Assembly (NCBI GenBank): GCA_002449915.1 | Contig: DJXY01000133.1 | Coordinates: 1 to 12,840, forward strand | DNA from: Oribacterium sp. UBA6992 | GTDB lineage: Bacteria; Bacillota; Clostridia; Lachnospirales; Lachnospiraceae | Direction of reading: 5' to 3' | DNA length: 12,840 nt | Part shown: one piece after another, positions 1,687 through 12,688 of the stretch | How positions within the stretch are numbered: position 1 is the first letter of the stretch | Layout of the letters: every line of letters starts with the position of its first letter | Notes under the pieces: generated by a model | What the model was told of the DNA's origin: nothing | Databases searched by the model: none | The model's input: the letters and a program-made list of their open reading frames with translations, nothing else | Position numbers and translations under genes: made by a program

Positions 1687-2436
1687 ATGTCAAAAGAATA
1701 TAAGGCAGTTCTGCTCGACCTGGATGGCACTCTGGTAAATACGCTTTACAGCCTCCAGGACACAATGAACAAGACGATGGAGCATTTCGGACTGGATCCG
1801 ATTTCCATAGAGCAGGTGAAAAAATATATCGGAAACGGGTATCATGTTTTTGTAGAAAAATCCATCTTAGCTACAGCGGATCGGTATTACAGAGAAGCTG
1901 AAAAGTGGGAAGCCCGGGATGAGGATAAGGCTATGGACCTGGATCAGAAGGCAGATGAGATCATGGAGTTTTATGATGATGCCTGCGACTTCTACATTCG
2001 CCTTTTTGCCACGAACTGCACATATGGAAATGAAGCTTATCCCGGCATGAAGGAGAGCCTTGAGATACTGAAACAAAGAGGTAAGAAGCTTGCCTGCGTA
2101 ACCAATAAATCACTTGAGGAAGCCAATAAAGTGCTGGATCAGGTCTATGGAGCCGGCTATTTTGATTATGTTTCCGGAGATGATGGTACGCATCCTCTGA
2201 AGCCGGATACCGGAGTAGTCAACGATGTCTGCACGAAGCTTCAGATTCCTGTTTCAGAATGCATCTTCGTCGGAGATACCAGAACCGATATGGAAACTGC
2301 GGCAAAGGCTGGGATGCCGTCTGTAGGATGTGCATTCGGATACCGGGGAGTAAAGGAGCTTGAGAAATATCATGCGACAACGATCATTGATCATGCAGGA
2401 GAGCTTGTTAAGGCAATTGATTCCATCTCCTGCTAA
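1687..2436 (+). CDS. HAD-superfamily hydrolase, phosphoglycolate-phosphatase-like
   Basis: A predicted cytoplasmic phosphatase of 249 residues. All four HAD motifs are present: motif I DLDGT with nucleophile D11 and acid D13, motif II T139 in CVTNK, motif III K172 in HPLKPD, and motif IV GDTRTD with D197 and D201. Residues about 18-115 form a helical C1 cap, which carries an acidic insertion around 70-95 (EKWEARDEDKAMDLDQKADE) that may tune substrate choice. The family includes Gph (2-phosphoglycolate), PpaX (pyrophosphate) and other sugar or nucleotide phosphatases, so the substrate cannot be named. The start at 1687 is chosen because GGGAGGA (1674-1680) sits six bases upstream. An in-frame ATG at 1669 lies before this ribosome site and is rejected. 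It appears to be a single-gene unit with its own promoter. No clear T-run terminator follows. Confidence 0.88.
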   Translation: MSKEYKAVLLDLDGTLVNTLYSLQDTMNKTMEHFGLDPISIEQVKKYIGNGYHVFVEKSILATADRYYREAEKWEARDEDKAMDLDQKADEIMEFYDDACDFYIRLFATNCTYGNEAYPGMKESLEILKQRGKKLACVTNKSLEEANKVLDQVYGAGYFDYVSGDDGTHPLKPDTGVVNDVCTKLQIPVSECIFVGDTRTDMETAAKAGMPSVGCAFGYRGVKELEKYHATTIIDHAGELVKAIDSISC

Positions 2437-2509
2437 TGACGCCTGGATGCGAATGCGGTCTGTTTAGAGAAATTTCACATTCCCGCGGGGGAAAGACCAA
2501 CCGTACAGG

Positions 2510-2539
2510 TTGACAAAGCCTTTACGCGGGGACTATAAT
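2510..2539 (+). promoter_or_regulatory. Sigma-A promoter of the COG0523 GTPase operon
   Basis: A perfect TTGACA (2510-2515), an 18-base spacer and a perfect TATAAT (2534-2539). Transcription would start near 2546, giving a 5' leader of about 90 bases. The last base of the -10 box is the first base of the CIRCE-like operator. The 73 bases upstream of this promoter (2437-2509) hold only a short GC-rich palindrome around CCCGCGGG and no gene. Confidence 0.85.
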
Positions 2540-2565
2540 TAGCAATGCTTTATAGAGAGTGCTAA
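2539..2565 (+). promoter_or_regulatory. CIRCE-type operator (HrcA binding site)
   Basis: The left arm TTAGCAATG (2539-2547), a 9-base spacer and the right arm GAGTGCTAA (2557-2565) match the CIRCE consensus TTAGCACTC-N9-GAGTGCTAA. The right arm is perfect, the left arm matches 7 of 9, and the spacer length is exact. It overlaps the -10 box and predicted transcription start, which is the usual position of CIRCE. In Firmicutes CIRCE is bound by the repressor HrcA, whose activity depends on GroEL, and normally controls hrcA-grpE-dnaK and groESL. Here it would repress a metal-handling GTPase operon outside heat shock. The hrcA gene itself is not in the window. Confidence 0.75.
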
Positions 2566-2636
2566 TGTCCCTGACGGATCCATGTTATGGCGTGTCCGCA
2601 GGGTTTGGTTATTGCCATTTTGAGAGGAGTATAGTT

Positions 2637-3833
2637 ATGACACGTATAGATATTGTCTCCGGCTTCCTGGGAGCGGGTAAAACCACATTTATTCAGAGAC
2701 TTCTGGATGAGGCACTGAAGACCCAGAAGGTGGTTCTCATCGAAAATGAATTTGGAGAAATTGGTATCGATGGCGGCTTTTTAAAGGAATCCGGCATTGA
2801 AATCCGGGAGATGAACCAGGGATGTATCTGCTGTTCACTGGTCGGAGATTTTGAGAAATCTCTTACAGAGGTAGTAAACAGATATCAGCCTGATCGTATT
2901 ATCATTGAACCGTCCGGTGTCGGCAAGCTCTCGGATATTATTGGCGCGGTAAAAACCGTGTCCGGAAAGCTTGATGTCGTACTGGATGCTGCCGTTACGG
3001 TCGTTGATGCAAAAAAGGCAAAGCTTTACAGCAGAAACTTCGGCGAGTTTTTTAATAACCAGATCCTGTACGCCGGTACAGTTGTTCTTTCCAGAACAGA
3101 TATTGCGGATGATGCTAAAATTGAGGAAGCGGTTAAGATTGTAAAGGAAATCAATCCTAAGGCAACTGTCATTACCACACCGGAGGAAAAGCTTACAGGT
3201 GAGCAGCTCATCAATATCATTTCGGGTAAGGATACCCTGGAGGATGATATGATGAAGGAGGTCATGGACCGGGTTCACGAGCATGAGCATGAAGAGGAAG
3301 ACGATGACGATCATGACGTAATCGAGACTCTGAGCAATGGTATCAGCATCCATCACCATCATGATCACCATCACCACCATCACGAGCATGACCATGAGGC
3401 TCACGAGCATGAGCATGAAGAGGAGCATGATCATGATCACCATGACCATGACCACGACGAGCATGATCATGACCACCATGACCATGAAGATCATGATCAC
3501 GAGCATCACGAGCATGAGCACCATCATCATCACAATCATGATGCGGATGAGGTATTCACAAACTGGGGTATGGAAACACCGCATCCTTTCAGCAAGGCAA
3601 AGCTTGCCGAGATTCTTAAGGATATGTCTGATTCCGATAAATTTGGAACGGTCGTAAGATGTAAGGGTATGCTTGAGATCGCGGAAGAGAAGGGCAAGTG
3701 GATGTATTTTGATCTGGTACCAGGTCAGACAGAGATCCGCGAGGGCAGTCCTGAGTATACAGGCAAGGTTGTCGTTATCGGCTCGGATCTTAAGGAAGAT
3801 GTACTGAAGCAGGAATTTTGCGGGGAGAATTAA
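2637..3833 (+). CDS. G3E-family GTPase (COG0523/CobW-like) with a long histidine-rich metal-binding segment
   Basis: Probable cytoplasmic metallochaperone or metal-insertase of 398 residues. The GTPase domain spans about 1-205, with P-loop GFLGAGKTT (9-17), the ENEFGEIGIDG switch region (36-46), the family metal site CICC (63-66), a Walker-B-like IIIEPSG (88-94) and SRTD (152-155) in place of the usual NKxD guanine-specificity motif. Residues 214-301 contain about 40 histidines mixed with Asp/Glu, much longer than in most relatives. A CobW_C domain (about 306-395, TVVRCKGMLEI...VVIGSDL) closes the protein. The start at 2637 is chosen because GAGAGGAG (2622-2629) lies seven bases upstream. An in-frame ATG at 2559 would fall inside the operator and is rejected. 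COG0523 members serve zinc, cobalt or nickel; the His-rich segment suggests zinc or nickel, but the metal cannot be read from sequence. The stop is three bases from the next gene. Confidence 0.93.
   Translation: MTRIDIVSGFLGAGKTTFIQRLLDEALKTQKVVLIENEFGEIGIDGGFLKESGIEIREMNQGCICCSLVGDFEKSLTEVVNRYQPDRIIIEPSGVGKLSDIIGAVKTVSGKLDVVLDAAVTVVDAKKAKLYSRNFGEFFNNQILYAGTVVLSRTDIADDAKIEEAVKIVKEINPKATVITTPEEKLTGEQLINIISGKDTLEDDMMKEVMDRVHEHEHEEEDDDDHDVIETLSNGISIHHHHDHHHHHHEHDHEAHEHEHEEEHDHDHHDHDHDEHDHDHHDHEDHDHEHHEHEHHHHHNHDADEVFTNWGMETPHPFSKAKLAEILKDMSDSDKFGTVVRCKGMLEIAEEKGKWMYFDLVPGQTEIREGSPEYTGKVVVIGSDLKEDVLKQEFCGEN
3276..3539 (+). repeat. Low-complexity CAY/GAY/GAG tract encoding the His-rich segment
   Basis: About 264 bp of irregular short repeats such as CATGAC, CACGAGCATGAG and CATGATCAC, encoding residues 214-301 of the first GTPase. 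The units are degenerate rather than exact, so length changes by slippage are possible. The tract also creates long spurious open frames on the other strand. It stays in frame with intact domains on both sides. Confidence 0.9.
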
Positions 3834-3836
3834 TAT

Positions 3837-4880
3837 ATGGCAGAAAACGAAAATTACGAGAGTCTGAGAGATGATCAGATTCCTGTATTTGTCATAAACG
3901 GATTTCTGGAAGCCGGAAAGACGGAGTTTATAAAATTCACAATGGAGCAGGAATACTTCCAGACGGAAGGAACCACAATCCTGCTTCTATGCGAGGAGGG
4001 CGAATCCGAATATGATCCGGCTATGCTCAAGCGGAACCATACGGTGCTGGTTCCAATTTCTAAAGAGACCGAGCTCACCAAGGAGTATCTCGGTAAGCTT
4101 GCTGAAAAGTATGATCCGGAGAGAATCCTAATCGAGTGGAACGGCATGTGGAATCAGGACGATCTGTATGATGGTCCAATGAGCGAAAAGCTCCTTGCCA
4201 AAGCACAGAACCGGGAACCGGGTTACGAGGTATCCATGCCGGAGGACTGGGTCATCTATCAGGTGATTACCATTTTGGACGGCTCCAGTTTGGATCTTTA
4301 TCTTAATAACATGAAATCCTTCCTGGGACAGATGTTAAGAAGGGCAGAGCTTGCGATTGTAAACCGCTGTGACGGCATCAGCAATGACAAGCTCGTGGAC
4401 TATCGTAGAAAAATCCGTGCAATGGGACAGAATGCCATGATTGTCCTGGAAGATAAGGATGGCGAAATCCCTCAGGATACTCTGCCGGAGGATCTGCCAT
4501 ATGACATTAATGCGGACAGAATCGATCTGAAGCCGGAGGACTATGGCACCTGGTTTATTGACTGCATGGATAATCCGGACCGCTATATCGGTAAAGAGGT
4601 TTCCTTTGATGCGATGATTCTGAAGCGGAAAGGGAGTCCCGCAAATGAATTTGTTCCGGGACGTATGGCGATGACCTGCTGTGCACAGGATATGACCTTC
4701 CTCGGCTTTGTCTGCAAGGGAGATCCGAAGGAGCTTAGTGCCTACAAGACCAGAGACTGGGCTAAGGTAACGGCAAAGGTCGGCATGGCGGAACGGGAAG
4801 AATATAATGGCGAAGGACCCGTGCTGGAATGTCTTTCTCTCGTAAGAACGGGCGAAATTTCCGATCCGGTTACATTCTGA
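3837..4880 (+). CDS. Divergent G3E GTPase (CobW-like) fused to a DUF1980/TIGR03943-like C-terminal domain
   Basis: A 347-residue cytoplasmic protein, function unknown. Residues about 14-205 resemble a COG0523 GTPase: P-loop GFLEAGKT (22-29), a Walker-B-like LIEWNG (98-103) and NRCD (176-179) in the NKxD position. The family's CxCC metal motif is missing, and the equivalent region reads CEEGESEYD (52-60). Residues about 236-338 do not look like CobW_C. The pattern NPDRYIGKEVSFDAM, then GRMAMTCCAQDMTFLGFVCKG, then DWAKVTAKV resembles the C-terminal part of DUF1980/TIGR03943 (YcgQ) proteins, whose hallmark is a TCC-A-D segment; C281-C282 would be the metal or redox site. This domain call is from pattern memory and is less certain than the GTPase call. 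The gene lies three bases after the first GTPase with GGGGAG upstream, so the two are surely co-transcribed and probably act together. Confidence 0.82.
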   Translation: MAENENYESLRDDQIPVFVINGFLEAGKTEFIKFTMEQEYFQTEGTTILLLCEEGESEYDPAMLKRNHTVLVPISKETELTKEYLGKLAEKYDPERILIEWNGMWNQDDLYDGPMSEKLLAKAQNREPGYEVSMPEDWVIYQVITILDGSSLDLYLNNMKSFLGQMLRRAELAIVNRCDGISNDKLVDYRRKIRAMGQNAMIVLEDKDGEIPQDTLPEDLPYDINADRIDLKPEDYGTWFIDCMDNPDRYIGKEVSFDAMILKRKGSPANEFVPGRMAMTCCAQDMTFLGFVCKGDPKELSAYKTRDWAKVTAKVGMAEREEYNGEGPVLECLSLVRTGEISDPVTF

Positions 4881-4917
4881 CCTCATTGTGCTAAAATTTG
4901 TAAGAAACATATATATA

Positions 4918-4965
4918 AAAGAGCAAAAGGACCTTCAGTTAAGCTTTAGTCCTTTTGCTTTTTTA
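4918..4965 (+). terminator. Rho-independent terminator of the GTPase operon
   Basis: AGCAAAAGGAC (4922-4932) pairs exactly with GTCCTTTTGCT (4949-4959), followed by six T residues (4959-4964). A-rich bases before the left arm could also make it work in the other direction. It sits about 40 bases after the second GTPase stop and cleanly separates that operon from the ABC transporter operon. Confidence 0.93.
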
Positions 4966-5014
4966 TTCATTGATTATATAAGTAATAACATAGAGTTATA
5001 TAATTAAGTTCTAC

Positions 5015-5043
5015 TTGCAAATATTATAAAGCTGGATTATAAT
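5015..5043 (+). promoter_or_regulatory. Sigma-A promoter of the ABC importer operon
   Basis: TTGCAA (5015-5020), a 17-base spacer and a perfect TATAAT (5038-5043) stand 72 bases before the lipoprotein start. The surrounding DNA (4966-5115) is very A/T-rich. The expected leader of about 66 bases is too short for a T-box or a typical riboswitch. Confidence 0.82.
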
Positions 5044-5061
5044 GCACACATATCAAAGATA

Positions 5062-5073
5062 TTAACGCGTTAA
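5062..5073. promoter_or_regulatory. Perfect 12-bp palindrome, candidate operator
   Basis: TTAACGCGTTAA lies about 12-24 bases downstream of the predicted transcription start, a position where a bound repressor would block elongation. An even palindrome with a central CG is typical of LacI-family operators. A second, longer-spaced inverted repeat, ATATTAAC (5059-5066) and GTTAATAT (5093-5100), overlaps it and ends just before the ribosome site. No matching repressor gene is in the window. Confidence 0.5.
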
Positions 5074-5115
5074 AGCAGATTAGTGCAAATTGGTTAATAT
5101 TGAGGGGGAAAAATT

Positions 5116-6216
5116 ATGAAAAAAGTAAAAAAACTTACAATTGTATCTATGACAGCGATTCTTGCAGCTTCCTCACTTGCAGCATGCGGATCTTCCTCTA
5201 CGCCCAATGCAACAACTGCGGCAGCTGCTGCAGGAACTACTGTTGCATCAGAAACAACGGCATCTAATGAAAGTACTTCAGCGGCAAAGGAGAGCTCGCA
5301 GGCAGCAGTCGAGTCCGGTGGTGCTAAAACAGTAGGAGACAAGAAGTTTAAGGTTGGTATCTGCCAGCTGGTACAGCACAATGCTCTGGATGCAGCAACC
5401 AAGGGCTTTGAAGAAACTCTTGAGAAAGAGCTTGGAGATAACGTAACAATTGACCTTCAGAACGCTCAGGGTGATTCGGCAACCTGTGCAACGATTGTCA
5501 ATGGCTTTGTTTCCAATGAGTATGATCTCATCATGGCAAATGCTACACCTGCTTTACAGGCAGCTGTATCTGCAACTACAGATATCCCAATTCTCGGAAC
5601 CTCTGTAACCGATTATGGCACTGCGCTTAACATGAGCAATTTCAGCGGTACTACCGGCATCAATGTTTCCGGAACCTCAGATCTTGCGCCACTCGATCAG
5701 CAGGAGGATATGATCCTTGAACTGGTACCGGATGTAAAGAAGGTTGGTATTCTGTACTGCTCAGCTGAGGCTAACTCCAAGTTCCAGGCAACACAGATCG
5801 AGAAGTATCTCGATGAGGACGGTGTGCAATATCAGGAGTATACATTCTCCGATTCCAACGATCTGCAGTCGGTAGTTACCTCTGCTGTTGGAAATATTGA
5901 TGCGCTTTACATCCCAACCGATAACACGGCAGCTTCCAACATGACCGTTGTTAACAACGTAACGGAACCTGCAAAGATTCCGGTCATCTGCGGCGAGGAA
6001 AATATGATGAAATCCGGCGGACTGGCAACACTTTCCATCAGCTACTATGATCTGGGTGCTGCAACAGCCAAGCAGGCGATTGATATCCTTGTGAACGGCG
6101 CGGATGTTTCCACCATGGAAATTGCCTATGCAAGTGCTACAACTAAGGAGTACAATAAAAAATATGCTGATGCGATCGGTATCACAATCCCGTCCGACTA
6201 TACTGCAGTGGAATAA
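5116..6216 (+). CDS. ABC importer substrate-binding lipoprotein (PF04392 family)
   Basis: Extracellular solute-binding component of 366 residues, anchored to the membrane by lipid. The N-terminus has a KK-rich start, a hydrophobic stretch and the lipobox LAAC with Cys24. Residues 25-72 are a flexible Ala/Ser/Thr linker. From about 76 (FKVGICQLVQHNALDAATKGF) the protein follows the ABC_sub_bind/TrpX-like fold, with a first lobe ending near DLIMANATPALQAA and a second lobe around KVGILYCSAEANS and ALYIPTDNTAASN. Relatives include predicted tryptophan binders (TrpX) of streptococci and the C. difficile tyrosine-binding lipoprotein CD0873, so an aromatic amino acid is the best guess for the ligand, by family only. 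GAGGGGG (5102-5108) gives a strong ribosome site. A terminator hairpin after it probably lets this gene be expressed above the permease and ATPase genes. Confidence 0.92.
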   Translation: MKKVKKLTIVSMTAILAASSLAACGSSSTPNATTAAAAAGTTVASETTASNESTSAAKESSQAAVESGGAKTVGDKKFKVGICQLVQHNALDAATKGFEETLEKELGDNVTIDLQNAQGDSATCATIVNGFVSNEYDLIMANATPALQAAVSATTDIPILGTSVTDYGTALNMSNFSGTTGINVSGTSDLAPLDQQEDMILELVPDVKKVGILYCSAEANSKFQATQIEKYLDEDGVQYQEYTFSDSNDLQSVVTSAVGNIDALYIPTDNTAASNMTVVNNVTEPAKIPVICGEENMMKSGGLATLSISYYDLGAATAKQAIDILVNGADVSTMEIAYASATTKEYNKKYADAIGITIPSDYTAVE

Positions 6217-6231
6217 TTAGCGATTCCGTAC

Positions 6232-6261
6232 TTTACAGAACTGCATCAGTATCAGTATAAT
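6232..6261 (+). promoter_or_regulatory. Possible internal promoter upstream of the permease gene
   Basis: TTTACA (6232-6237), an 18-base spacer and a perfect TATAAT (6256-6261). The predicted start near 6268 is just before the terminator hairpin at 6271, so transcripts from here would carry that hairpin at their very 5' end. This could give the permease and ATPase genes their own supply of message, or the match may be chance in A/T-rich DNA. Confidence 0.45.
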
Positions 6262-6270
6262 AAATGAAAT

Positions 6271-6301
6271 AGCGCAGGTGCTATAGTGCCTGCGCTTTTT
6301 T
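6271..6301 (+). terminator. Intercistronic terminator between lipoprotein and permease genes
   Basis: AGCGCAGG (6271-6278) pairs exactly with CCTGCGCT (6289-6296) across a 10-base loop, followed by six T residues (6296-6301). Its place between the binding-protein gene and the permease gene of one importer suggests partial termination, lowering expression of the two downstream genes relative to the lipoprotein gene. Confidence 0.85.
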
Positions 6302-6325
6302 ATGAATTGAGACAGGAGAGTATTT

Positions 6326-7378
6326 ATGGCAGCCTATTTTGCATCCCTTAATCCGGTAGCGCTTTGGAATGCTGCTCCCGGAGGTATCGCGCAGGGTCTG
6401 ATCTGGGGTATCATGGCACTTGGCGTTTACATGACATTCCGAATCCTTAATTTTGCGGATATGACCGTGGATGGTTCCTTTGCCCTTGGCGGAGCAATCG
6501 CCGTCATGCTGATGTTAAAAGGAGTTAACCCGGAGATTGTGCTGGTAGTATCATTTCTTGCAGGTCTTGGCGCCGGCTTTATCACCGGATTTTTACATAC
6601 CATGCTGGGGATCCCCGACATTCTTGCAGGAATCCTGACACAGATTTCTCTTTACTCGATTAATCTTAACATCATGGGTAAAGCGAATCAGGCGGTTCCC
6701 GTTGGTCAGGTGAGAGTATTCTTTACCTCCAATATCCGTTATCTCGGACAGACAATTGCCCTGACACTGGTGGTGGATGTCATCCTGATTGCGATTTTTT
6801 ACTGGTTCCTCGGCACTGAAAACGGCAGTGCGATCCGTGCGACCGGTATCAATGCGCATATGTCACGCGCCCAGGGCATTAATACGAACCGCATGAAGGT
6901 GGAAGCCCTCATGGTAGGAAATGCCCTTGTTTCTTTATCCGGAGGTATCCTTGCAGAATATCAGGGCTTTGCCGATGTCAAAATGGGACAAGGCTCCATC
7001 GTCATTGGTCTTGCTGCCGTCATCATCGGAGAGGTGCTTGCACAGCTTGTTGCAGGTAAAAGGCTTAACTTTATCCTGCGATTGAGTTTTACCGTGATTG
7101 GCGCCATCGTATATTACATGGTCTATGTTTTTGTCCTCTGGCTTAAGTTCCCGGCGGATGATATGAAGCTCCTGACTGCAATTGTGGTAGCGATTTTCCT
7201 GGCAGTTCCATATTTCCAGGAGCAGAAGACAAGCTCCTTCCATGGGCTGAAAAGAAGAAACGCAAAGCTCAGGGAAGCCATGCGCAAGGCAGCGGAGGGC
7301 GATGACGTGATTAATGATACAGCAGCTGAGGACGAGCGACAGGAGCAGACGACAGAAACCGGGAAGGAGGCAGATTGA
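6326..7378 (+). CDS. ABC importer permease, BPD_transp_2 (branched-chain/LivH-like) family
   Basis: Membrane subunit of the importer, 350 residues. About nine hydrophobic helices are visible, roughly at 20-40, 51-65, 70-90, 95-113, 141-161, 192-210, 224-243, 253-273 and 281-297. The pattern LNFADMTVDGSFALGGA (41-57) and the GQGSIVIGLAAVIIGE region (221-236) fit the BPD_transp_2 permeases that partner PF04392 binding proteins. The last 52 residues (299-350) are a highly charged cytoplasmic tail rich in Glu, Lys and Arg, longer than the transport core needs. AGGAGAG (6314-6320) is the ribosome site. Its stop TGA (7376-7378) overlaps the ATG of the ATPase gene by one base, so translation of the two is coupled. 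Confidence 0.93.
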   Translation: MAAYFASLNPVALWNAAPGGIAQGLIWGIMALGVYMTFRILNFADMTVDGSFALGGAIAVMLMLKGVNPEIVLVVSFLAGLGAGFITGFLHTMLGIPDILAGILTQISLYSINLNIMGKANQAVPVGQVRVFFTSNIRYLGQTIALTLVVDVILIAIFYWFLGTENGSAIRATGINAHMSRAQGINTNRMKVEALMVGNALVSLSGGILAEYQGFADVKMGQGSIVIGLAAVIIGEVLAQLVAGKRLNFILRLSFTVIGAIVYYMVYVFVLWLKFPADDMKLLTAIVVAIFLAVPYFQEQKTSSFHGLKRRNAKLREAMRKAAEGDDVINDTAAEDERQEQTTETGKEAD

Positions 7379-8175
7379 TGCTGGAGTTAAGACATATTTA
7401 CAAAACATTTAATCCCGGAACCATTAATGAAAAGAAAGCGCTGGTTGATGTCAATCTGACACTTGAAGACGGCGACTTCTGCACAGTGATCGGCGGTAAT
7501 GGCGCCGGTAAATCTACGATTATGAATGCCATTGCCGGAGTGTGGCCGCTGGACTCTGGTATGATTCTTGTAGACGGAGTAGACATTTCCGGACTCTCGG
7601 AATACCAGAGAGCTCCTTTTTTTGGACGCGTGTTCCAGGATCCGATGACTGGTACCGCTGCAGATATGCAGATTGATGAAAATATGGCTCTTGCAGCAAG
7701 GAGAGGTCAGAAACGAGGATTCCGCTGGGGCTGCACAGCCAGAGAGCGTCAGACTTATCGCGCAATGCTGTCGAGACTGGACCTTGGACTTGAGGACCGC
7801 CTGACTGCAAAGGTCGGACTGCTCTCCGGAGGTCAGCGACAGGCACTTACACTGATCATGGCAACCATGAAAAAGCCCAAGGTATTGCTGCTGGATGAGC
7901 ACACAGCGGCGCTGGATCCTAAGACTGCGTCCAAGGTATTGCAGGCGACCGACCAGATTGTAACAGAAAACAATCTGACGACTTTGATGGTAACCCACAA
8001 TATGAGGGATGCCATCGCTCATGGCAACCGGCTGATCATGCTGGACAGCGGACATATTATCTATGATGTAAGAGGTGAGGAAAAGAAAAAGCTAACCGTT
8101 GAGGATCTGCTTAAAAAGTTTGAGGAGGTGTCGGGAGGCGCCTTTGCCAATGACCGTATGATTCTCTCAAAATAA
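7378..8175 (+). CDS. ABC importer ATP-binding protein
   Basis: ATPase subunit of 265 residues that powers the importer from the cytoplasmic face. It has Walker A GGNGAGKS (39-46), a Q-loop Gln87 in VFQDP, the signature LSGGQ (149-153), Walker B VLLLDE with catalytic Glu174, and the switch His207 in VTHN. The ATG at 7378 is chosen because AAGGAGG (7364-7370) is seven bases upstream. An in-frame TTG at 7375 is only four bases from that site. The start overlaps the permease stop (TGATG). Sequence around the Walker B motif (LLLDEHTAALDP) is typical of the ATPases paired with PF04392/BPD_transp_2 systems. The operon ends at the terminator 60 bases downstream. Confidence 0.95.
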   Translation: MLELRHIYKTFNPGTINEKKALVDVNLTLEDGDFCTVIGGNGAGKSTIMNAIAGVWPLDSGMILVDGVDISGLSEYQRAPFFGRVFQDPMTGTAADMQIDENMALAARRGQKRGFRWGCTARERQTYRAMLSRLDLGLEDRLTAKVGLLSGGQRQALTLIMATMKKPKVLLLDEHTAALDPKTASKVLQATDQIVTENNLTTLMVTHNMRDAIAHGNRLIMLDSGHIIYDVRGEEKKKLTVEDLLKKFEEVSGGAFANDRMILSK

Positions 8176-11272: not shown

Positions 11273-12592
11273 TCAGAGCAGGGCATTCCGGAATTCTTTG
11301 GAATTAAATTTATAATAATGTGTCGGTCGTCCAAGATGCGAGGCTTTTTTAGGAGTATCCTCTGCCTCGGTAAGATCCAGAATATGAAGCTCTGTCAGCT
11401 TCACCAAAATCCTGCTCGCGGAACGTGGTGTAATTCCAAGCAGAGTAGCAAGATTCATGGAACTTAAAATCTGACCCTCATCCTGCTCAAACATACTGAT
11501 CAGCTTCAGGATGTTTGTTTCATTGATGCCTTTGTCTCTTGCAAAGGCCAGTGCCTTTTCGTTAGAGTAGCTGTAGATCAGCTTGGTGTCAGCAGACAGA
11601 GGTCCTGTTACCGTGCCTTCCTCACCGACAAAAAATGCATCATTTCTGCCATAACGATTTGCCTCAAGCAGTGCGTGCTCTGAGAAATAGCGGCTTCTCT
11701 CCCGAGAGGATCCCAGTCCTGCACCTATGCGGAAGGGAAAGCCTATTTTTTTTCTAAGATCCAGTAAAATCGGCCGCAGTGATTCAGCTTCAAATGTCCC
11801 TGCATCCATCTGTGTATGCAGTTCAAATTGATTAAACCCCTGATTGATGGAAAAATGCAGGTGATTGGATTTGCGATAATCCGCAAGCATTTTATAAATG
11901 GTGGCTTCTCTGTATTCCTGCTCCTCCTGGTCAATGTCCTCACCAAAGGGTAAGCGGATCAGGATATTGAGCTCATCCTTCTGTTCAATGCTGTCAAGCT
12001 TCAGTTCATTGAGTGCTGATTTAATAGACTTGATGATCATCTCCCTGGAAGGCCAGACGGCTACATACGGGATATGCAGTTCGTCCAGACGTTTCAGATT
12101 ATTAATACTCCTTGAAAGGATAAGATCAATCTTGCCCTGGTCAAAAAGATCTTTGGCATAGCTTGTAATGTGCCGGTAGTCATAATGGGTGTCATTAAAA
12201 CAGTAGGGCATGTTCTCTGGCTTGATATACTGATCTATATCCATATAATGATTGGTAATCGTCAGGAAATCGCAGAATACCCGATTTAACGGGATATCCG
12301 GATGCTCAATTTTAAAATTCAGCAGGATGGAGAGTACATCGATGGTTTCATATGCAGTAAATGCACATGGAATCCGGTTGTCGGGAAACTTGTTTTTCAT
12401 GTAATGATATCCAAGCTCTCCGGAAAAGAATATGACATCACATTTTCCCCGACACTCATCATAAATACTGTCGATGTCAGACATCTTTTTATAGATGTAT
12501 GTATGGAACTGACATCCAAGGTCCATTTCACTAATGGCTTTATCAATGGGCTCCAGCCCATGGTCAGGGCTGACCACGGCAACACTGATCAT
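11273..12592 (-). CDS. Uncharacterised one-component regulator: PrpR_N-like, degenerate GGDEF-like and winged-helix regions
   Basis: Predicted cytoplasmic transcription regulator of 439 residues. Residues about 1-180 (MISVAVVSPDHG, then CDVIFFSGELGYHYMK, IPCAFTAYETIDVL, KIDLILSRS) have the alternating strand-helix pattern of a PrpR_N or periplasmic-binding-like sensor. Residues about 205-325 include FRIGAGLGSSRERSRYFSEHALLEANRYGRNDAFFV, which resembles the degenerate GGDEF-like region of CdaR-type regulators. Residues about 360-430 form a winged helix (NLATLLGITPRSASRILVKLTELHIL, wing near GRPTHYYKF). Domain names are by pattern and only moderately sure; the HTH is the firmest. The ATG at 12592 is chosen because GAGG lies seven bases upstream. 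A GTG 22 codons earlier has no ribosome site and would add a hydrophobic stretch. It is divergent from the gene at the window end, a likely target. Confidence 0.75.
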   Translation of the reverse strand: MISVAVVSPDHGLEPIDKAISEMDLGCQFHTYIYKKMSDIDSIYDECRGKCDVIFFSGELGYHYMKNKFPDNRIPCAFTAYETIDVLSILLNFKIEHPDIPLNRVFCDFLTITNHYMDIDQYIKPENMPYCFNDTHYDYRHITSYAKDLFDQGKIDLILSRSINNLKRLDELHIPYVAVWPSREMIIKSIKSALNELKLDSIEQKDELNILIRLPFGEDIDQEEQEYREATIYKMLADYRKSNHLHFSINQGFNQFELHTQMDAGTFEAESLRPILLDLRKKIGFPFRIGAGLGSSRERSRYFSEHALLEANRYGRNDAFFVGEEGTVTGPLSADTKLIYSYSNEKALAFARDKGINETNILKLISMFEQDEGQILSSMNLATLLGITPRSASRILVKLTELHILDLTEAEDTPKKASHLGRPTHYYKFNSKEFRNALL

Positions 12593-12688
12593 ATTACAGC
12601 CTCGCTTCCAGATTTTGTAAAAGACATAAACGACATAAACTATATTGAAGATTACCACTGCAATATGTAAAAGTCAATTGTTCCGGGG

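Follow-up and report, generated by a model that had tools for sequence, protein, structure and literature searches.

A CIRCE-type operator before a two-gene COG0523 GTPase operon: a probable link between HrcA and metal handling in Oribacterium

HrcA regulons are mainly known as sets of chaperone and protease genes. Whether such a regulon may also take in metal handling is the question raised by a stretch of DNA from Oribacterium, a gut and mouth bacterium of the Lachnospiraceae, where a site resembling the CIRCE operator stands before an operon for putative metal GTPases. The stretch (12,840 nucleotides in all, called the window below) is contig C69 of a draft genome of 1.84 Mb in 225 contigs that is about 73% complete. 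The operon is followed in the window by an ABC transporter set at 5116-8175, comprising a TrpX-like substrate-binding protein, a permease and an ATPase. The minus strand carries an RNase H with a Cauli_VI (RNase H1 N-terminal) domain at 813-1562 and, at 11273-12658, a protein of 461 aa that matched neither Pfam nor NCBIfam. The features of the locus itself are as follows.

2510-2515, plus strand: -35 box TTGACA, from a promoter scan; retained in 15 of 15 carrier loci of the genus
2534-2539, plus strand: -10 box TATAAT, from a promoter scan; its last T is common to the operator
2539-2547 (left arm), 2548-2556 (spacer) and 2557-2565 (right arm), plus strand: putative CIRCE operator, from the pattern and a matrix score of 28.4
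2623-2629, plus strand: ribosome-binding site AGAGGAG, read from the sequence
2637-3833, plus strand, ATG at 2637: COG0523 (G3E, CobW-like) GTPase of 398 aa; PF02492 (E=1.9e-41) and PF07683 (E=6.3e-10)
3837-4880, plus strand: diverged COG0523-type GTPase without CxCC, with a fused DUF1980/TIGR03943 C-terminal domain; Pfam and NCBIfam
4922-4964, plus strand: terminator-like hairpin AGCAAAAGGAC / GTCCTTTTGCT followed by T5, found by eye; its loop of 16 lies beyond the limit of the hairpin scan, which hence does not list it

The site on the plus strand at 2539-2565 reads TTAGCAATG-CTTTATAGA-GAGTGCTAA. In a pattern search its arms agreed with the consensus TTAGCACTC-N9-GAGTGCTAA at 16 of 18 positions (two mismatches) and the 9-base spacer was exact, just as an earlier note on this DNA had described. 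It is the sole CIRCE match in the whole window, where the chance expectation is a mean of 0.01 (200 shuffles, of which two gave at least one match). The TTGACA/TATAAT promoter matches at 12 of 12 positions with a spacing of 18, and no other 12/12 match lies in 2300-5300. The earlier note had the site abutting a perfect -10 box; the box is indeed perfect, but the operator overlaps the promoter by one base rather than abutting it, its first T being the last T of the box. Transcription is predicted to start at about 2545-2547. The left arm departs from the consensus in its inner letters, ATG in place of CTC. The same genome has the variant half-site TTAGCAATG again at hsp20, there on the gene-proximal side and in opposite orientation to the gene, and the groES site of this genome has the related inner variant ACG.

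The two genes downstream lie three bases apart and form the metal-handling GTPase operon that the earlier note had read there. The first protein has a Walker A motif (GFLGAGKT), a CICC motif at residues 63-66, a His/Asp/Glu-rich linker and a CobW_C domain, and 42 of its 398 residues are His. Domains and motif together identify it as a COG0523 metal GTPase, with a putative role in metal handling. CxCC is present in all 30 first-gene sequences examined. Relatives without CIRCE often have His-rich linkers too, and the linker is thus not tied to heat control. No NCBIfam equivalog matched the first protein above cut-off (ZigA was weak, at 77.8 bits where 600 are required), and homology thus does not fix the metal. 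The nearest solved GTPase-domain structure by sequence is that of E. coli YjiA (1nij, 4ixm; E=2.9e-22 for 1nij), but the match stops at residue 181, before the His-rich linker, and in Oribacterium a DUF1980_C partner gene comes next.

That partner protein has 6359 homologues at E 0.001, with CxCC in none of the best 120, and because it is itself missing CxCC it is not filed as a canonical COG0523 metallochaperone. A Cys-Cys pair, C281 and C282, is invariant in 25 aligned sequences. As modelled (mean pLDDT 86.8, with the C281/C282 loop of low confidence), the second protein keeps the GTPase fold. The top 50 Foldseek matches listed were mostly G3E and SRP-type GTPase domains, with HypB and UreG among the best, and gave no new clue to function. 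The operon contains no client gene.

For the site to act as an HrcA operator, the regulator has to be in place. The source genome encodes HrcA on contig C13 (PF01628, E=1.6e-55), and hrcA is itself preceded by a perfect 18/18 CIRCE. At up to three mismatches the genome has five CIRCE-like sites, versus one with a reversed control pattern. They lie before hrcA-grpE (0 mismatches), lon (1), a tandem hsp20 pair (2), the COG0523 operon (2) and groES-groEL (3), with groEL, grpE and the second hsp20 recognised by eye. The presence of hrcA, which the earlier note had put forward for a genome scan, was thereby borne out. None of the five lies before clpB or htpG, in a draft that is roughly 73% complete. 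Pfam searches for CtsR, the usual regulator of clp genes, gave no match to either CtsR domain in any of 61 genomes, and none in the control B. subtilis, which has CtsR (PMC8957991; this and the other papers cited are drawn on in excerpt), so that this negative is unreliable. Against a CtsR motif, the upstream regions in the genus held no convincing box; one match with three mismatches was found in a genome of another genus (G022).

A census of the genus covered 17 genomes, all drafts, one per species, with the source genome among them. It yielded 118 CIRCE-like sites at up to three mismatches; the reversed control pattern yielded 17, about one per genome. The surroundings of all 118 sites were taken, and BLAST of the genes starting within 450 bases downstream (E<=1e-5) assigned 112 of them: hsp20 19, hrcA 17, groES 17, lon 16, clpB 15, htpG 15 and COG0523 13. 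Altogether 104 sites lie before hrcA, groES, hsp20, clpB, htpG, lon or ftsH and 13 before COG0523, leaving one exception among the 118, a site in G012 (locus L209) that looks like chance. Pfam confirmation covered one reference gene per proteostasis class. Sites with three mismatches are common before groES in the genus. The earlier note confined CIRCE, in its classical occurrence, to hrcA-grpE-dnaK and groESL; for this family that is too restrictive, since clpB, htpG, hsp20, lon and in places ftsH carry it as well. Judged by these sequence assignments, the COG0523 operon is the sole recurrent target outside protein quality control in the 17 genomes.

The ftsH gene is preceded by a CIRCE-like site in five of the 17 genomes (G007, G010, G014, G015 and G016; loci L214, L221, L228, L261 and L274, at 2501-2527 in each). 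Its identity was confirmed by Pfam M41 for G015 (L228) and read from the N-terminal sequence for the other four. A gene for a CsoR/RcnR-type metal repressor and ftsH flank the site in G010, G014 and G015, where it is a perfect palindrome and may double as a terminator. That these palindromes are simply csoR terminators was considered and set aside; an operator is likelier, since G007 and G016 have sites before the same gene.

Before the COG0523 gene, a CIRCE adjoins the same promoter in 15 of the 17 genomes, two sites with four mismatches (G004, G005) being added to the 13 found at up to three. In all 15 the first base of the site is also the final base of the -10 box, which is TATAAT in 13 carriers, TATGAT in G004 and TATACT in G007; the -35/-10 spacing is 17 in 13 carriers and 18 in two, one of them the source genome. 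Across the 15 rows, column agreement is 98% in the outer arm, 90% in the inner arm, 60% in the spacer and 46% in the 30 bases downstream. Among the 11 rows that are less than 75% alike, the values are 98%, 86%, 56% and 40%, respectively. A matrix was built from proteostasis sites only (48 distinct sites, 11 genomes). It gave the 15 COG0523 sites scores of 18.6-28.4, as against 23.6-32.8 for the training sites (leave-one-out minimum 22.9). Among 306,723 other sequence windows in 60 genus loci around CIRCE sites, four scored above 8, namely three before ftsH (27.8) and the L209 site (17.2). All 15 COG0523 sites thus outscore unrelated background, which, the ftsH sites apart, reaches 17.2. The maximum over 100 Markov copies of the 12,840-nucleotide window was 14.1.

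Some weight against reading the site as an operator comes from the ATG variant of the left arm and from the less perfect copies. A Mollicutes study gives functional CIRCE as having at most two mismatches (PMC5138195), and the COG0523 sites have three in G001, G006 and G010 and four in G004 and G005, where control patterns reach about one match per genome at three.

Two genomes keep the COG0523 gene and are missing the CIRCE: G008, inferred to be O. parvum, and G012. The upstream phosphatase-type neighbour gene, read by eye, is also retained in both. A candidate degraded CIRCE in O. parvum, with seven mismatches, was rejected, its score lying within background. G008 and G012 are sisters (support 100/100) nested among carriers, the position of the pair being supported at 91/70. 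A tree of 30 GTPase domains needs two label changes, which fits one gain and one loss of the site; a single gain close to the root of Oribacterium and a loss on the O. parvum branch are the probable history. The expectation that relatives would keep the arms therefore holds for 15 of 17 genomes and fails for O. parvum and its sister, in which the gene stays. Because it stays there, the operator is not essential to the operon. The control by HrcA proposed in the earlier note nevertheless gains support from the presence of hrcA and from the conserved arms.

Outside the genus, CIRCE was absent before the COG0523 gene in all 13 loci examined. Among named loci (the best 80 of 354), five carry the site, and all five are inferred to be genomes already in the genus set. 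It is absent in O. parvum ACB1 (L109) and in 74 other named loci in the same 80, none of which is labelled Oribacterium; L094, L107 and L146 have less than 300 bases of upstream sequence. Close named relatives include Oribacterium sp. RUI013 (L085), Oribacterium sp. oral taxon 078 F0262 (L077) and O. parvum ACB1. Five other genera of the family were sampled, through five of ten genomes (G024, G025, G030, G033 and G035) and 22 of 51 sites. All 22 sites lie before hrcA, htpG, groES, hsp20 or clpB, and none before lon or COG0523. The family core thus looks like a broad chaperone regulon, to which lon, COG0523 and, in some genomes, ftsH appear to have been added within Oribacterium. In several other genera of the family without CIRCE, a second, weaker COG0523-type match lies directly beside the first, suggesting that heat control was probably added to a pre-existing gene pair.

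Might the palindrome be read by something other than HrcA? A different repressor, such as a metal sensor, would suit the metal-handling type of the gene, and Zur or B12 frequently controls COG0523 genes (PMC2770081). Against this stands the result that no Zur-like core (Firmicutes motif, up to three mismatches) was found in the window; in the genus the best upstream match to this core has 4-6 mismatches in 14, equal to other genera. The arms fit a matrix derived from chaperone and protease sites alone, and a second regulator with identical 27-bp geometry in the same genomes would be a less simple proposal. A different repressor is thus a very unlikely explanation. An action at the RNA level, through a 5' hairpin controlling mRNA stability, is suggested by the location of an inverted repeat at the transcript start, and is even less credible. 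The predicted start would put most of the left arm outside the mRNA, and in most rows the inner three arm letters pair incompletely (ATG versus GAG), so pairing is not the conserved feature. At the gathering threshold, no Rfam element, riboswitches included, was found within the window. A chance or relic match without function, which the two genomes without a site and the yield of the control patterns at three mismatches might favour, is just as improbable as the hairpin: the site is conserved at one position in 15 of 17 genomes despite diverged spacer and flanks, and its matrix scores exceed those of unrelated background windows.

It is thus very probable that the 27-bp element is a genuine HrcA operator and that its recruitment took place within Oribacterium. 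From its sequence and setting, it is highly likely that this CIRCE, placed across the -10 box and the start of a strong housekeeping promoter, works as such and that the two-gene operon is induced together with the chaperones, likely for metal supply or buffering. HrcA is described as depending on GroEL for its activity and losing it upon protein damage (PMC3842655, PMC8957991). By analogy with this established biology, HrcA sitting on the -10 box and start site would block RNA polymerase in the resting state; when unfolded proteins occupy GroEL, HrcA would lose activity and the operon would be derepressed. It would then be co-expressed with DnaK, GroEL, Hsp20, ClpB, HtpG and Lon.

Insertion of metals into client proteins is the known or presumed task of COG0523 proteins (PMC9164220). 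The GTPase and its CxCC-less partner would most likely supply or buffer a metal for proteins undergoing refolding, or abundant synthesis, under stress. The metal and the clients are hypothetical, with zinc as a first guess for the metal. The simplest link would be a demand for metal, under stress, by metalloproteins just made or refolded, for example the zinc protease FtsH, which belongs to the same regulon in five genomes; that the operon buffers metal set free would be about as likely as metal supply. A broader proposal is tentative and somewhat doubtful as a whole: in Oribacterium HrcA would have become the chief repressor of all protein quality control, with metal delivery as an integral part of that response. 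The COG0523 pair would metallate stress proteins such as FtsH or DnaJ, or restore metal to refolded clients, and folding and metal insertion would then be switched on together. An equally tentative alternative accepts the operator as real and has the operon sequester metal from damaged proteins or serve one unrelated stress-labile metalloenzyme, rather than supply metal to proteostasis proteins. The His-rich first protein, the conserved Cys-Cys pair of its CxCC-less partner and an operon without a client gene are consistent with that alternative; His-rich linkers, however, are common in CIRCE-less relatives, and GTP-driven delivery is a known theme of the family (PMC9164220).

The B. subtilis regulon of hrcA-grpE-dnaK-dnaJ and groESL is alike in the operator, the 9-base spacer, the place relative to the promoter and the self-control of hrcA (PMC8957991, PMC3842655). 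That of Oribacterium differs in adding clpB, htpG, hsp20, lon, ftsH (in five of 17 genomes) and the COG0523 operon. CIRCE before clpB and lon is shared with the Mollicutes HrcA regulon (dnaK operon, clpB, lon), for which the excerpted text describes no metal-handling target (PMC5138195). HrcA targets beyond chaperones include rpoH in Geobacter sulfurreducens (PMC545781), and in Lactobacillus plantarum unknown genes and an integrase are affected or predicted as targets (PMC3842655); none of the unusual targets named in these excerpts is a metal-handling operon. The Zur-controlled proteins YciC/ZagA and ZigA have the G3E GTPase with CxCC in common with the first protein, whereas the Oribacterium locus has an HrcA-type operator and no Zur-like box. 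In the open-access literature, as excerpted and for most searches among the best-ranked 10-20 papers, no report was found that links HrcA or CIRCE to COG0523 or metal handling; cobW and hrcA each occur once in PMC4176598 and PMC5480029. Leads connecting COG0523 with heat are eukaryotic only, namely heat induction of Arabidopsis At1g80480 and heat sensitivity of yeast YNR029c, in the excerpts of PMC2770081.

The operator, the promoter, their conservation, the membership of the regulon and the families of the genes can all be read directly from the compared genomes. The occurrence of a metal-handling operon under an HrcA-type operator in 15 of 17 genomes implies that selection in this lineage has coupled the trafficking of metals to folding stress. 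The clients of COG0523 proteins are a long-open question, for which the co-regulated proteins give a short and testable list of candidates. These data suggest that metal handling is part of the response of Oribacterium to damaged proteins.
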